From the IMG/VR virus record IMGVR_UViG_3300037189_011463, positions 1 through 23,519 of that record: a DNA stretch of 23,519 bases; one strand, 5' to 3'. Shown in pieces: positions 3,584 to 19,651 of this stretch (the first letter of the stretch is position 1; each line of letters begins with the position of its first letter). Both the position numbers and the translations under genes were made by a program. The notes beneath the pieces were generated by a model. That model saw nothing but the letters and a program-made list of their open reading frames with translations. It was not told where the DNA came from and made no database searches. This DNA comes from a virus.

Positions 3584-4603
3584 ATGAAAATAGAAGGTAG
3601 AGTAGCAATATCAGGAAGATTTAGTACAAAACCTCCGACAGCGGCGGCAATTGTTACTGGTCAACAAGCTTACGTAACCCCCGGTATATATTATTGGACA
3701 GTACCAGACAACGTAACAAGTGTTTCGGTAGTTTGTATTGGCGCAGGCGGAAGCGGCAAATCTGGTTCAGTAGGTAATGATAGTGGAAGCAAAGATGGTG
3801 ATGCAGGGGTAGGAGGAGGCGGTGGCGGATTAGGATACGTTAATGATATTCCAGTTGTGCCCGGCACAACACATATGATTATAGTTGGAGCCGGAGGAAC
3901 AGGTTCCATAACGCAAGGCGGAGGCAGCGCAGGCCAATCTAGTTATTTTAAATCCAATGCAGGTGCAAATATTATTATTGCATATGGTGGAGGATTTAAT
4001 TCGAACAATACCGAAGCGACAGGCGGATTGCTAGGTGGCGCCGGAGGAACATATTTTGTAAGTAACGTATATGGTACGTATGGCGGAGGCAACGGCGGCA
4101 ATGGTGGATTTGCTGAAAACAATTTTGCAGGAACGGGTGGCGGTGGTGCTGGTGGTTATTCTGGCAACGGCGGCAATGGTGGTTATGTAAGTGGCACGTA
4201 TAATGGAACTAATGGTTCCGGTGGCGGTGGAGGTGGCGGTGCTGGTTTTGAAGGCGGAGATGGTTCAGGTGGTAGTGGCGGCGCCGGCGGCGGTACTGGA
4301 ATTTTAGGAGAAGGTTCCAGTGGTATAGGCGGGACATATATGACTTCAAACGCACCTGTAGGTGGAGGAACTGGCGGGTCAGGAGCTCCAGCAGGAGGCG
4401 GAGGTGTGTATTCTGGTGCAGGGGTGAGTCAAGGCGGTACAGGTGGTTCGTATGGCGGCGGTGGAGGTGGTGCTAACAACTTTGATAATGTATTCTTTGG
4501 CGGAAATTATGGTAGATCAGGTGATGGAGCGGGAGGTGCCGTAAGAATTATTTGGCCAGGAAATACTAGAGCATTCCCAACAACCAGCACAACAGATCTA
4601 TAA
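3584..4603 (+). CDS. Glycine-rich tail fibre/adhesin-like protein
   Basis: A 339-residue protein. About 60 N-terminal residues (MKIEGRVAISGRFS...) include a beta strand-rich segment with PGIYYWTVPDNVTSVSV, typical of glycine-rich phage structural domains. Residues about 65-320 consist of dozens of GG, GGG and GGxGG clusters spaced by short linkers, ending with GAVRIIWPG. The Gly-rich pattern resembles polyglycine-II adhesins such as the gp38-type tips of T-even relatives (family knowledge), in which the variable loops contact the receptor. It is the first of three such genes here, with 10003 and 10938. It starts 3 nt after the nuclease gene, with AGGG as a weak ribosome site. Expected location: distal tail fibre or virion surface. 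Exact role inferred. Confidence 0.82.
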   Translation: MKIEGRVAISGRFSTKPPTAAAIVTGQQAYVTPGIYYWTVPDNVTSVSVVCIGAGGSGKSGSVGNDSGSKDGDAGVGGGGGGLGYVNDIPVVPGTTHMIIVGAGGTGSITQGGGSAGQSSYFKSNAGANIIIAYGGGFNSNNTEATGGLLGGAGGTYFVSNVYGTYGGGNGGNGGFAENNFAGTGGGGAGGYSGNGGNGGYVSGTYNGTNGSGGGGGGGAGFEGGDGSGGSGGAGGGTGILGEGSSGIGGTYMTSNAPVGGGTGGSGAPAGGGGVYSGAGVSQGGTGGSYGGGGGGANNFDNVFFGGNYGRSGDGAGGAVRIIWPGNTRAFPTTSTTDL

Positions 4604-10002: not shown

Positions 10003-10929
10003 ATGAGCACAAGAAGATTTTCGACAAGAAATCACGCAGGTGAAGGTAAGCGCGCAAATTCACGTAACAATCGCCCAGATATATCTGCTCTAGGGTTCTC
10101 CGGTCCTCCAGCAATAGATTATTATCTGGTTGGAGGTGGTGGCGCAGGCAACGAAGGTGGCGGTGGTGCCGGCGGCGTCTCTTCAGGAACTATTCAAATA
10201 GGAAGCGGTGCATCTCCCAACGTAAAAGTAAATGTCTCAGTAGGTGCAGGCGGAACTGCCGGTAGTAGAGGTAGCAATACTACAGTTTCAACTCCTGTTT
10301 TTACGGGGTATGGAGTAGGCGGAGGAGGAGAGCAATCACCTGGTGGATCAGGAGGCGGCGCAAGACGAGACGTACCAAATAATGAAGGCAGAGGTTTAGG
10401 ATTTCCCGGACAAGGTAATCAGGGCGGAGACGGTTCGGGTAATGAACATGCTGGCGCAGCAGGAGGCGGTGGATTTTCCCAAGCAGGAAATAGAGGTGCT
10501 TCAGGCGGCGGTGGTCCAGGAGGAGAACGAGGCGGCAAAGGCGGTAACGGTACAACCAATAATTGGATAGGACCAACTATAGCTTATGCCGGAGGCGGTG
10601 GCGGCTCTTCTCAAAATGATATTTACGCACCACCTAGCGAAGGTGGTGGAGGCGGTGGCGGAGGACCTGGCAGAAATGGTGCAACCACTTTTGGCTTTGC
10701 GGGAAATGTAAACACCGGAGGCGGTGGCGGTGGAGCACAAAGTGGTCCAGGCGGTAATGGCGGATCTGGTACTGCGATCCTAAGATATCCTACAGCATAT
10801 ACAGCGGTTGCTATTACTGGAAATGTGGAAACGTTCAATAATGTGAGTGGTTATACTGTATATAAATTTAACGGTCCAGGTATTCTAAGTTTTACTCCTC
10901 TTAGAAATTATGTTGATCATTCGGATTAA
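10003..10929 (+). CDS. Glycine-rich adhesin-like protein (second copy)
   Basis: A 308-residue protein. A basic 40-residue N-terminus (MSTRRFSTRNHAGEGKR) is followed by IDYYLVGGGGAGNEGGGGAGG, then Gly-rich runs (GG, GGGG, GGxGG) across about 45-255. A C-terminal non-glycine domain begins ILRYPTAYTAVAI and ends VYKFNGPGILSFTPL. The arrangement matches the next gene (IEYALVGGGAGG start; IRYPVIYGNAY and TWTGPGSITF end), so the two are tandem paralogues. The family is known in phages as fibre-tip adhesins with polyglycine-II helices or as glycine-rich tail proteins. The start has only a weak ribosome site; it begins 12 nt after the previous stop. Confidence 0.82.
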   Translation: MSTRRFSTRNHAGEGKRANSRNNRPDISALGFSGPPAIDYYLVGGGGAGNEGGGGAGGVSSGTIQIGSGASPNVKVNVSVGAGGTAGSRGSNTTVSTPVFTGYGVGGGGEQSPGGSGGGARRDVPNNEGRGLGFPGQGNQGGDGSGNEHAGAAGGGGFSQAGNRGASGGGGPGGERGGKGGNGTTNNWIGPTIAYAGGGGGSSQNDIYAPPSEGGGGGGGGPGRNGATTFGFAGNVNTGGGGGGAQSGPGGNGGSGTAILRYPTAYTAVAITGNVETFNNVSGYTVYKFNGPGILSFTPLRNYVDHSD

Positions 10930-10937
10930 GAATAGTT

Positions 10938-12131
10938 ATGAGTATTACAAATTTCAATAGTAGAAAAATTAGTAGAACTAGATTCAATGATAGAAATCTA
11001 CCTAACATCTTTTCTAAATTAGATACCTCACGACCAGTATTCATAGAATATGCTTTAGTAGGTGGTGGCGCAGGTGGGGGACAAGGGGGCGGTGGTGCTG
11101 GCGGTGTAGCCAGAGGAACTCTAATATTAACTACTGGTTCTAATTCTACAGTATCAATATCTATTGGCGGTGGTGGCGGAGTAGGTAATACTCCTACTGC
11201 ATCGGGTCAAGCAGGTATTCACGCTGGTTCTAATGGCAGTCCAAGTTCAATAACTACCCCTGCAGGTAATGTGGGATTAACCTCATTGAGTATTATTGCT
11301 GCAGGCGGTGGTTCGGGTGGCGGTGCGCCAGGTGGAGGCAATCAAGGTATGGGATGGCCTGGTGGTTCAGGTGGAGGTCATGGGCGGGATGCTAGTAATA
11401 GTATATTTTCCGCTAATCTATATGGTTTAACCCCTAATATACTACAAGGAAGTCCGGGCGGGTTTCAATCAACCGCAGGTATTTTTGGTGGGAGCCCAGG
11501 TGCTGCTACAAATCAATTAGGTGGAGCTGCAGGTGGCGGAGGTTATTCACAAGCAGGAAGCCCAGGTCAAGCTGGAGGCGGAGATAACACGCAAGAAATT
11601 GGCGGTTATGGTGGTAATGGTTTAATTATAAATTGGAGATGGGCAAACGAAGCATTCGCTGGAGGTGGAGGCGGTGCATCTCAATCTGAAAACGGCGCAG
11701 GTGTAACTACTAACACTCCAGGTAATCCTACTAGAGGCGGTGCATTTATGGGAGGTGTAGGTGGCATAGGTGGGGGCGGATGGGGAGGTGGACCAAAAGG
11801 TGCAAATGTTCTATATGGTGCATCTATTGCAGGTACAGGTGGTGGCGGCGGAGGAGCAACATCTCCAGGAATGAGCACTGCGGGATCTGGCGGTAGATGT
11901 ATGATTCGCTATCCGGTGATATATGGTAATGCATATTCAACTGCAGGGTCTCCGAATATTATGTTAAGTCCAGATGGGAATCTTTCAAATAATCAAGGGT
12001 ATTGGGTATTTACATGGACAGGACCCGGATCAATAACTTTTCCAGGTGGTCCTGCGGGCAATCAAGGCATTTCTGATAACGACGTAAGAGCTTATCTTTC
12101 TGGGGCTTTCCCGCCCGCAGGAGGAATTTAA
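10938..12131 (+). CDS. Glycine-rich adhesin-like protein (third copy, longest)
   Basis: A 397-residue protein: a basic N-terminal 35 residues (SRKISRTRFNDRN), a strand-rich entry VFIEYALVGGGAGGGQGG, about 270 residues of Gly clusters with interspersed Asn/Ser/Ala loops, and a C-terminal domain RCMIRYPVIYGNAY...WVFTWTGPGSITF. It is a tandem paralogue of the gene at 10003, with the same order of segments but longer, differing loops, as expected where host range is under selection. It starts 8 nt after its neighbour. The likely place is the distal fibre or other surface-exposed virion part; the receptor is unknown. Confidence 0.82.
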   Translation: MSITNFNSRKISRTRFNDRNLPNIFSKLDTSRPVFIEYALVGGGAGGGQGGGGAGGVARGTLILTTGSNSTVSISIGGGGGVGNTPTASGQAGIHAGSNGSPSSITTPAGNVGLTSLSIIAAGGGSGGGAPGGGNQGMGWPGGSGGGHGRDASNSIFSANLYGLTPNILQGSPGGFQSTAGIFGGSPGAATNQLGGAAGGGGYSQAGSPGQAGGGDNTQEIGGYGGNGLIINWRWANEAFAGGGGGASQSENGAGVTTNTPGNPTRGGAFMGGVGGIGGGGWGGGPKGANVLYGASIAGTGGGGGGATSPGMSTAGSGGRCMIRYPVIYGNAYSTAGSPNIMLSPDGNLSNNQGYWVFTWTGPGSITFPGGPAGNQGISDNDVRAYLSGAFPPAGGI

Positions 12132-18136: not shown

Positions 18137-18276
18137 TATTCATTAGTATAATATTTTGTATATTGTTCTGGCATTGGTCAATGATAGCATTCGAAGAGGG
18201 TAGTATGGGGTGGGGATATTGGCACCTATTCTGGTCTGCTTTAAATGCCGCTTTTGTCCTTGGGCGTATCTTTTAA
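18133..18276 (+). CDS. Small hydrophobic membrane protein (47 aa)
   Basis: A 47-residue protein with a hydrophobic first helix (MIFISIIFCILFWHW) and a second aromatic-rich segment, GWGYWHLFWSALNAAFVLGRIF. It resembles small phage inner-membrane proteins with two short helices. No known family is evident; lysis- or membrane-associated roles are guesses. It is coupled by ATGA to the upstream gene and ends 2 nt before the inverted repeat that holds the late promoter. Confidence 0.7.
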   Translation: MIFISIIFCILFWHWSMIAFEEGSMGWGYWHLFWSALNAAFVLGRIF

Positions 18277-18278
18277 TT

Positions 18279-18308
18279 CCGTAAAACTATAAATATTATT
18301 ATTTACGG
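18279..18308 (+). repeat. Inverted repeat enclosing the late promoter box
   Basis: CCGTAAA (18279-18285) and TTTACGG (18302-18308) are perfect reverse complements; one U-G and one U-A pair could extend the stem. The 16-nt loop contains the TATAAATA box (18288-18295). On read-through RNA this would be a hairpin just after the small-gene run; on DNA it gives dyad symmetry around a late promoter. Confidence 0.6.
18288..18295 (+). promoter_or_regulatory. T4-type late promoter box TATAAATA
   Basis: An exact match to the T4 late box in the 40-nt gap before the LxE-punctuated gene at 18317. With transcription starting some 6-7 nt past the box, the leader would be about 15 nt. It supports late, virion-time expression of that gene. 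Confidence 0.78.
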
Positions 18309-18316
18309 GATTTAGC

Positions 18317-19651
18317 ATGAAAACCTTACGAAAGCTTAGAGAAGGTCTTAAAGTAGTAGCAGTTGACACTTTAGGTAAAACTATTCCCAAGAGCAAGATC
18401 AATAGCCTGCAGGGTGCCATAATGAAACGAGATATTCAGGGCACTAGACAGGACGAGTCCACCATGGGTGTTGGTGAGATTGACGCTGGTCTATATACTA
18501 AAAAGAATACATATCCAAAGACCAAAACAAAGTCTGCTGCTGTAGGGGAGACCTCTAATCCCGCATTTCACAATCCCTTTAGTTCGACTAAATCCTCATC
18601 TACTGTAGATAAAATACAAAAAGCTAAGACTAGAAAAATCAATCAACCTGGTCAAGGTGTGTATAAGAAACAGACTCCATCTACACGAAAACGTGTTGTC
18701 AATAATTATATGAAAATGCTTAAGGATATTGGTGAGCAAACAGAATATACTGTTAAGCACGGAGATACTGAACAAACAGTTAATGACTACGATCACGCTA
18801 TAAACAAAGCTCGAAGCATTTTAGCATACGGTAAAGCAAAAGAAGTTTATATTCATACCAATGGTAATCCTACGCATAAATGGCAACTTGGCAAGCATAT
18901 CGAAAAGATAAAAGAAGAAGTTGATCTTGATGAGGCAGTTGAAGTTCAGTCACATCATTATGAATTTAGCCATGGCAAGCGCCCGGCAGGGGAAGGTATG
19001 TGGATGTTTACTCCGCATAAAAATATTGATTTTTCTAAGCATAAAGAGGGTGAGCACTATATCAGCGTGCATGGCAAATATGGTGAGGCTAAAAAGAAAG
19101 CACAGCAATGGGCTAAATCAAAAGGTCATCGTATCATTAAAATAGCTGAAGAAGTTGAACTAGATGAAGCTAAGCGTCCAGATAGACCACTACCTAAAAC
19201 CAACTTACGTGTTGGAGATAAAGTCGTAGCTGATACAAGTAAAGAAGATTATCCTGGCGGACACAAACAACGTGTAGGTGTAGTCACACGAGTTGGCGAA
19301 AAGGGTGTTCATATTAAAACAGATGATAGCAACGAACCAGAATGGCATCCGCATAAAATTGTAAAAAAGCAGATGAATGAATTAGATGAAGCAGGTCGCT
19401 GTTGGACAGGATATAAACCTAAACCAGGTAAGAAAGCATATTCACCAGGTTCCTGCGTAAAAGAAGAAGAAGTTTTTGATCAATTAGATGAAAGAGGTTT
19501 AGATGTAGGTCATCAAAAGAGACAAATGTCTAAACACTTTGATAGATATATTCAAGCTGTGCGTGCAGGCAAATTTAATCAAGCAAGAATGCACTACAAG
19601 AAATATAATGAGCATAAACAAACACTGCAGAAAACAGGCCATACAACTTAA
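18317..19651 (+). CDS. LxE-punctuated multidomain protein, putative head-packaged polyprotein
   Basis: A 444-residue, very basic protein with a low-complexity first third (Lys/Ser/Thr-rich, 10-135). Small globular units follow, each ended by an acidic linker with Leu-Asp-Glu: EEVDLDEA (204-206), EEVELDEA (282-284), NELDEA (356-358) and FDQLDER (390-392). LRE at 7-9 and IGE at 138-140 also fit the (L/I)xE rule of the T4 prohead protease (gp21). The resulting units are about 10-140, 141-206, 207-284, 285-358, 359-392 and 393-444. Unit 285-358 (LRVGDKVVADTS, GVVTRVGEKGVHIKTDD) looks like an SH3/KOW barrel; the unit after 358 starts GRCWTGYKPKPGKK with C362 and C380. The upstream late promoter supports a virion role. 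Cleavage is an inference. Confidence 0.75.
   Translation: MKTLRKLREGLKVVAVDTLGKTIPKSKINSLQGAIMKRDIQGTRQDESTMGVGEIDAGLYTKKNTYPKTKTKSAAVGETSNPAFHNPFSSTKSSSTVDKIQKAKTRKINQPGQGVYKKQTPSTRKRVVNNYMKMLKDIGEQTEYTVKHGDTEQTVNDYDHAINKARSILAYGKAKEVYIHTNGNPTHKWQLGKHIEKIKEEVDLDEAVEVQSHHYEFSHGKRPAGEGMWMFTPHKNIDFSKHKEGEHYISVHGKYGEAKKKAQQWAKSKGHRIIKIAEEVELDEAKRPDRPLPKTNLRVGDKVVADTSKEDYPGGHKQRVGVVTRVGEKGVHIKTDDSNEPEWHPHKIVKKQMNELDEAGRCWTGYKPKPGKKAYSPGSCVKEEEVFDQLDERGLDVGHQKRQMSKHFDRYIQAVRAGKFNQARMHYKKYNEHKQTLQKTGHTT

Follow-up and report, generated by a model that had tools for sequence, protein, structure and literature searches.

A 444-residue phage protein with Leu-Asp-Glu sites between its units as a candidate head cargo polyprotein

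The viral record IMGVR_UViG_3300037189_011463 (23,519 nucleotides, analysed in full and called the window here) encodes a 444-aa protein in which the tripeptide Leu-Asp-Glu recurs. The question raised by this locus is whether the product acts as one protein or is loaded into the phage head and cut there into several internal proteins that are injected with the DNA, as a preliminary description of the sequence had proposed.

The gene, its promoter and its predicted cleavage sites

The gene, its promoter and the sites predicted in its product are listed below; a slash marks a predicted cut.

18288..18295, + strand: T4-type late promoter TATAAATA, exact match, 21 nt before the ATG of the 444-aa ORF
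18317..19651, + strand: 444-aa mosaic protein, candidate head cargo polyprotein (ORF, ATG start, translation)
18317..18343, + strand: capsid-targeting-like N-terminus MKTLRKLRE, predicted cut before G10 (by comparison with T4 ipII and ipIII and with clade relatives)
18710..18736, + strand: second targeting-like stretch MKMLKDIGE, residues 132-140 (pattern scan of the window)
18926..18934, + strand: predicted protease site LDE206/A207 (from sequence)
19160..19168, + strand: predicted protease site LDE284/A285 (from sequence)
19382..19390, + strand: predicted protease site LDE358/A359, which aligns with the targeting-sequence junctions of proteins in contigs L064 and L114
19484..19492, + strand: weaker predicted site LDE392/R393

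The exact late promoter of the preliminary description was confirmed, with one other copy of TATAAATA in the window (6143), likewise located just 5' of an ORF. The promoter sequence predicts for the 444-aa gene the late transcription that characterizes the T4 internal proteins. An 11-nt inverted repeat (91%; window 18275-18312) was observed on both sides of this promoter. The gene is surrounded by mixed genes, with no adjoining head operon in the window, whose genes include those for a virion structural protein (approximately 41% identical to cyanophage virion proteins), nrdB, an endolysin-type protein and a 2OG-oxygenase. Glycine-rich ORFs at 3584-4603 and 10003-12131, with a GC content of approximately 0.46-0.49, above that of the rest of the window, are probably of the tail-fibre or adhesin type.

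An identical copy of the 444-aa protein is encoded in the 42-kb contig IMGVR_UViG_3300032320_002033. The whole protein matched no Pfam family at E<=0.001, the only match of a whole-protein tblastn search against phage records was a CW module in cyanophages, and no function was obtained from Pfam, PHROGs or fold searches.

The four Leu-Asp-Glu sites claimed earlier were found, ending at residues 206, 284, 358 and 392, together with LRE at residues 7-9. In composition-preserving shuffles of the 444-aa protein, L[DE]E was observed 4 times versus 0.16 expected (p=0.0002) and [LI]xE[AG] 4 times versus 0.37 expected (p=0.0002); composition alone as the source of the LDE sites was ruled out by these shuffles. 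The density was also high compared with the rest of the window, where the remaining 34 listed ORFs together contain four L[DE]E in 6488 aa, versus four in 444 aa here. The EE-V-(D/E)LDEA linker described before is complete at 206 and 284, whereas the third site reads MNELDEA and the fourth FDQLDER. Arginine occupies P1' in 6 of 99 [LI][DE]E sites of the protein class defined below, and both LDE392/R393 and IGE140/Q are poor, doubtful cut sites. Of the two further (L/I)xE sites proposed earlier, LRE9 is followed by G and IGE140 by Q.

The N-terminus MKTLRKLRE/G carries L4, L7, LRE at 7-9 and G10 and resembles MKTYQEFIAE/A of T4 ipII and ipIII, LRE9 being one residue nearer the start than IAE10 of T4. 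It thus combines hydrophobic residues at positions 4 and 7, an (L/I)xE at about 8-10 and a small residue next. In the T4 capsid-targeting sequence (CTS), residues 4 and 7 chiefly direct loading, residues 8 and 10 direct the cut, and the sequence by itself is enough for loading (PMC9026906). An aspartate at position 10 of the T4 CTS prevents processing while leaving loading intact (PMC9026906). The second stretch, MKMLKDIGE, may be a relic of the start of a fused gene, left by an old gene fusion.

Units of the chain and their predicted structure

The sites divide the chain into the following units.

18344..18736, + strand: unit 0 (residues 10-140), basic (net charge +15, pI 10.1), mostly disordered, pLDDT mostly <50
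18737..18934, + strand: unit 1 (residues 141-206), predicted beta-beta-alpha-beta-beta-alpha, ending EEVDLDE, pLDDT approximately 77-88 over 141-190
18935..19168, + strand: unit 2 (residues 207-284), small alpha/beta domain with homologues, mean pLDDT 73 in its own model
19169..19390, + strand: unit 3 (residues 285-358), weak matches to phrog_2251 (E=6e-5) and PF24203 (E=3e-4)
19391..19492, + strand: unit 4 (residues 359-392), CWxGYK...GSCVKEE module common to >100 phage ORFs
19493..19648, + strand: unit 5 (residues 393-444), basic helical hairpin, net charge +9, pLDDT 94-98 over most of its length

Modelled with AlphaFold as a full chain, the protein gave low overall confidence (mean pLDDT 57.9, pTM 0.28), with units 1 and 5 predicted confidently. 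The pLDDT fell below 50 at residues 1-11, 138-140, 198-203, 207-220, 274-299, 301-362, 379-383 and 387-391, and all eight [LI]xE of the protein lie in or beside such stretches of this model, which is supportive but not strong, half of the chain being below 50. The predicted structure agrees better with cuts made between domains than with cuts that would destroy them.

When the units are taken singly, as the preliminary description had suggested, the outcome is mixed. Units 1 and 5 are confident, and unit 2 modelled alone loses confidence (pLDDT <50) at its linker end (residues 74-78 of the unit), whereas AlphaFold left unit 3 unfolded. For the SH3/KOW-like fold once assigned to residues 285-358, unit 3 gave only the weak family matches: the phrog_2251 profile is 74 positions long, and the score against Phage_ProQ_C_like (PF24203), 21.9 bits, lies under the curated cut-off of 27, so that unit 3 was not placed in that family. 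The segments had also been described as basic and of DNA-binding type. This was borne out in part, by the net charges of residues 10-140 and 393-444, whereas residues 141-206 (-3) and 359-392 (0) are not basic; uniformly basic, DNA-binding units were rejected as unsupported. Fold matches of unit 5 to helical hairpins (Z up to 8.6) were dismissed as a guide to function because this arrangement is common.

No homologue of unit 0 was found in the fetched loci beyond the identical copy. Unit 2 belongs to a family with nine invariant residues and has no PDB match at E<=0.001. Its homologues follow EEVELDE/A in L091 and INE/A in L037, so that the placement after LxE/A is seen in three proteins in all, and it also stands alone, as a small gene of Rhizobium phage RHph_I4 (78 aa) and as a short ORF in contig L327. 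Unit 4 follows ELDE/A in the window protein and a targeting-like start in two others, MKTFKQYLDE/ in L064 and MKTFKQHLDE/ in L114.

The mosaic class, its sites and the protease of related phages

Among 2.9 million viral contigs, at least 120 stretches encoding EEV[DE]LDEA were detected, compared with 24 in all when these eight residues were scrambled. Two or more EExELDE-type linkers occur in 57 ORFs of the fetched loci, with up to seven per chain (for example in L037, 1417 aa; L008, 839 aa; and L063, 765 aa). An LDE-linked CTS mosaic class was defined by a CTS-like start, at least two (L/I)xE linkers and units common to members at the linker, all of which are present in the 444-aa protein; mosaic proteins of this class are numerous in T4-superfamily phages. 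No description of this class was found in the literature, of which subscription papers lay mostly outside the search. Pfam scanning of 60 members detected 19 families, including cytidyltransferase-like (9), DUF5824 (9), HNH (2) and RMF, HicA and DUF192 (one each). In an 800-aa mosaic relative (L091, 10071-12470), one stretch resembles ribosome modulation factor (PF04957, E=4e-5, slightly below the curated cut-off), which suggests a ribosome-targeting cargo. CW-type modules were also observed in cyanophage proteins encoded between gp16 and gp17 (L002 1778-4558, L003 3720-5843 and L004 3978-5594); those of L002 and L003 additionally combine a DACYxKVK...WPSAYASG module with a C-terminal GGLNEKGRKSYERENPGSDLKAP module. 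SSM1_115 (T4-GC119) of phage S-SM1, a mosaic that includes a CW-type module, bears the label hypothetical in the S-SM1 record, and some other S-SM1 proteins bear the label virion.

Targeting-like starts were counted with a pattern for which T4 ipII and ipIII served as the positive control, and 30 of 126 non-redundant mosaic proteins have one. The first expression showed no enrichment against the other ORFs of the same loci (p=0.34). Because many of those ORFs bear targeting-like starts themselves, random contigs were chosen as the control; the expression was revised between the two counts using the T4 CTS positions known to matter, so that the resulting frequencies are descriptive and do not represent a pre-set test: 244 of the 1895 ORFs on contigs that encode a mosaic-class protein or a CW module, versus 3 of 827 in random contigs. 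Many tagged ORFs look like enzymes, such as a nucleotidyltransferase-like protein starting MRSFRELTE/A. T4-type targeting starts were observed on many ORFs of L006-L225, of nucleotidyltransferase-like, HAD-like, NTHMEHIED and HIHHAEDRP families, and these could yield a catalogue of predicted head cargo. The S-SM1 protein T4-GC190 (SSM1_190) begins MKKFSAFLNE/A and is the sole experimental anchor for a tagged protein: the putative citidylyltransferase T4-GC190 was among the proteins detected by mass spectrometry in purified S-SM1 virions (PMC3037559).

In ORFs taken independently of the LDE pattern scan, A, G or S occupies the position after L[DE]E (P1') in 64% of 58 cases, versus 17% of 253 after other [DE]E and a background of 23%. 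Among mosaic proteins, 13.6% of partial-alignment ends fall within 3 residues of [LI][DEN]E, compared with 5.9% for random placement. The segment that directly follows a targeting sequence was also sought within other proteins; of the 316 junctions projected in this way, 96 (30%) fell no more than 1 residue from an internal [LI]xE, versus 4% at random. The 316 cases are interdependent, a few unit families supplying many of them, and an LxE lies within 8 residues of just about half of these junctions. For example, one protein has a unit starting AVDAKGYKSS... after MLSFKEYITE/, and others have it after EEVELDE/, EELLE/, TNLDE/ or SIDE/; the sequence ahead of the site differs between the proteins. 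The alignment of relatives agreed with the expectation of shuffled units with conserved LxE: units recur in unrelated architectures with LxE at the unit boundary.

An S77 protease (PF03420, gp21-type) is encoded in all 15 sampled contigs >120 kb that carry LDE or CW proteins and in 8 of 36 fragments of 30-90 kb, versus 1 of 34 control contigs (random 14-mer or scrambled motif), the positive one belonging to the 4 that exceed 100 kb. This co-occurrence indicates compatibility rather than proof of cutting, and shared ancestry could explain it. No S77 gene was found in the 23.5-kb record or in the 42-kb contig that carries the identical copy, both of which are fragments; we infer the protease of the window phage from its relatives. 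In genomes with class proteins, the site of the major capsid protein just before the conserved core is mostly LFE/A, LLE/A, LYE/A or LFE/T, the gp23 cut positions being assigned by position and conservation, and gp22 in several of these genomes has LDE/A among several [LI]xE[AGS] in all. Since the P1' preference agrees with the major capsid protein and gp22 sites, the LDE linker is what the local protease would be expected to cut.

The clade of the window was defined by relatives of the 947-aa structural protein. S77 is encoded in 5 of 6 clade relatives >100 kb, the 444-aa protein in none of the 17 searched, and a coding match to V[DE]LDE[AG] was found in just 1 of the 17. Because clade relatives are without the protein, its gene is an accessory gene of the lineage. 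Two clade relatives (222 and 190 kb) encode, between the portal and the S77 protease, mosaics of 209 and 198 aa whose start, MKKFKELRE/S, closely resembles the tag of the 444-aa protein. The first part of the two is common, the units after their EEV-type linkers differ, and one ends in a GLYANIHAK unit that also occurs in mosaic proteins elsewhere. The same portal-protease slot holds LDE-linked or tagged ORFs in L229, L234 and L239. In L237, a gp67-like protein beside the protease carries EEVELDE/A followed by a strongly basic tail. T4 gp67 and gp68 are prohead core proteins, and the LDE linker therefore occurs in a head-core operon. Fusions of gp67-like prohead core proteins via EEVELDE/A to very basic, protamine-like tails were observed in L237, L076, L108 and L077.

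Proposed processing, alternatives and known systems

The preliminary idea of a head-loaded protein with gp21-type sites between swapped modules is thus partly supported. It survived the sequence tests that were run, namely targeting enrichment, P1' preference, boundary and register, synteny with the portal-protease operon and S77 co-occurrence; at the level of sequence, class membership, a targeting-like N-terminus, sites in register with unit boundaries and a protease in relatives are in place. Loading, cutting, ejection and a role of the pieces in the host are what we infer from them. In the proposed course of events, the gene would be transcribed late, the first 9 residues would act as a T4-type capsid-targeting sequence and recruit the product to the prohead core, and a gp21-type (S77) prohead protease would cut after LRE9, LDE206, LDE284 and LDE358, and perhaps after LDE392. 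Several small domains would be left inside the head and then ejected with the DNA. Because the internal linkers are of the same site type as the targeting junction, units would be exchangeable between chains or usable alone. On the sequence evidence, we consider this course from late expression to ejection probable, with considerable room for doubt. Against it count the missing protease gene in the two fragments, the absence of the 444-aa gene from the closest relatives, of which nearly all also have no V[DE]LDE[AG], the hypothetical rather than virion label of SSM1_115, the shift of LRE9 by one residue relative to T4, and the share of projected junctions, about half, that have no LxE within 8 residues.

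The same protein might be loaded and cut only at its targeting sequence, the internal LDE stretches being uncut flexible linkers of one multi-domain protein that is ejected in the manner of polyvalent proteins. The sufficiency of the targeting sequence for T4 loading (PMC9026906), the disorder predicted by AlphaFold for the linkers and the packaging or transfer of some polyvalent-type proteins unprocessed (PMC5512222) all agree with this. However, a plain linker needs neither the A/G/S preference nor the in-register exchange of junctions, and the protease would encounter several consensus sites in exposed linkers, which makes this explanation unlikely. Sites might also serve destruction, as in the degradation of gp22 or the propeptide cutting of phiKZ-type phages, and gp22 of the same phages indeed has several [LI]xE[AGS] including LDE/A, just as multiple cuts remove SPN3US propeptides (PMC10052503). 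Such a core- or scaffold-like role is improbable, as the sites fall between conserved or confidently folded units and not through them, and the occurrence of unit 2 as a stand-alone gene fits products rather than waste.

The least probable explanation, to which we give little weight, is that of a multidomain protein that stays in the cell and never enters the virion, with acidic EEVELDE as an ordinary spacer and a likeness to targeting sequences that arose by chance. It would suit a gene that lies among mixed genes outside a head operon and is missing from close relatives. Targeting-like starts are nevertheless rare among random ORFs (the 3 of 827 above), a clade mosaic starting MKKFKELRE lies inside the portal-protease operon, and the promoter is an exact late one.

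If the preferred reading of head loading and cutting into units is true, a single gene lets T4-type phages package and inject an exchangeable set of proteins. If the linkers are cut, many 'hypothetical' mosaics become readable as injected protein sets with predictable boundaries, and early host takeover becomes open to study through semi-tryptic peptides in virion data. The linker could also offer a ready-made natural way to put several proteins into T4 heads. For a wider reading the chances appear even: a general capsid-matured polyprotein system in T4-superfamily phages, in which EEVELDE/A linkers that copy the capsid-targeting junction join arrays of small, swappable host-takeover or DNA-binding domains, some of which are independent genes elsewhere, for loading in one piece, cutting by gp21 within the prohead, equimolar release and injection.

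The closest known systems are the T4 internal proteins IPI, IPII and IPIII and Alt, which are late gene products, as predicted for the 444-aa protein, and share with it a short hydrophobic-patterned N-terminus ending in (L/I)xE before a small residue; their phages encode an S77 prohead protease, as do 5 of the 6 clade relatives >100 kb. T4 internal proteins are single small units freed by an N-terminal cut, Alt being also cut near its C-terminus, whereas the 444-aa protein has four internal LDE sites and several dissimilar domains, and no similarity to the T4 internal proteins was detected beyond the N-terminus. As it is not a single unit, we do not class it as an internal protein, although it would work like one. 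T4 gp22, gp67 and gp68 also have several (L/I)xE sites; some mosaic class members occupy the gp67/gp68 position, and gp67-like proteins have EEVELDE/A. However, gp22 is broken down, whereas the 444-aa protein has its sites between units of which at least one is also a free gene, and neither a family match to gp67, gp68 or gp22 nor a gp20-gp21 neighbourhood was found in the window.

In phiKZ and SPN3US, a gp21-related protease (gp175, gp245) cuts many head proteins on the C-terminal side of E, some at several sites, and the known multiple cuts remove long propeptides (PMC10052503, PMC9026906). One chain cut into several distinct head products was not described in the literature searched, of which subscription papers were mostly outside the coverage. 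Polyvalent proteins of the DarA/DdrB type are multi-domain, mosaic and thought to be packaged and ejected, as proposed here (PMC5512222), but they have peptidase, ART, primase and similar domains, none of which was found in the 444-aa protein, and their processing is proposed to be self-catalysed, in contrast to the gp21 sites proposed for the 444-aa protein. S-SM1 T4-GC190 shares a CTS-like start and further LxE sites but is an enzyme domain, a cytidyltransferase, unrelated in sequence to the units of the 444-aa protein. In summary, tag loading with a single cut (T4), multi-cut propeptides and mosaic injected proteins are known already, and the 444-aa protein can be read as the T4 internal-protein system extended to multi-unit polyproteins.
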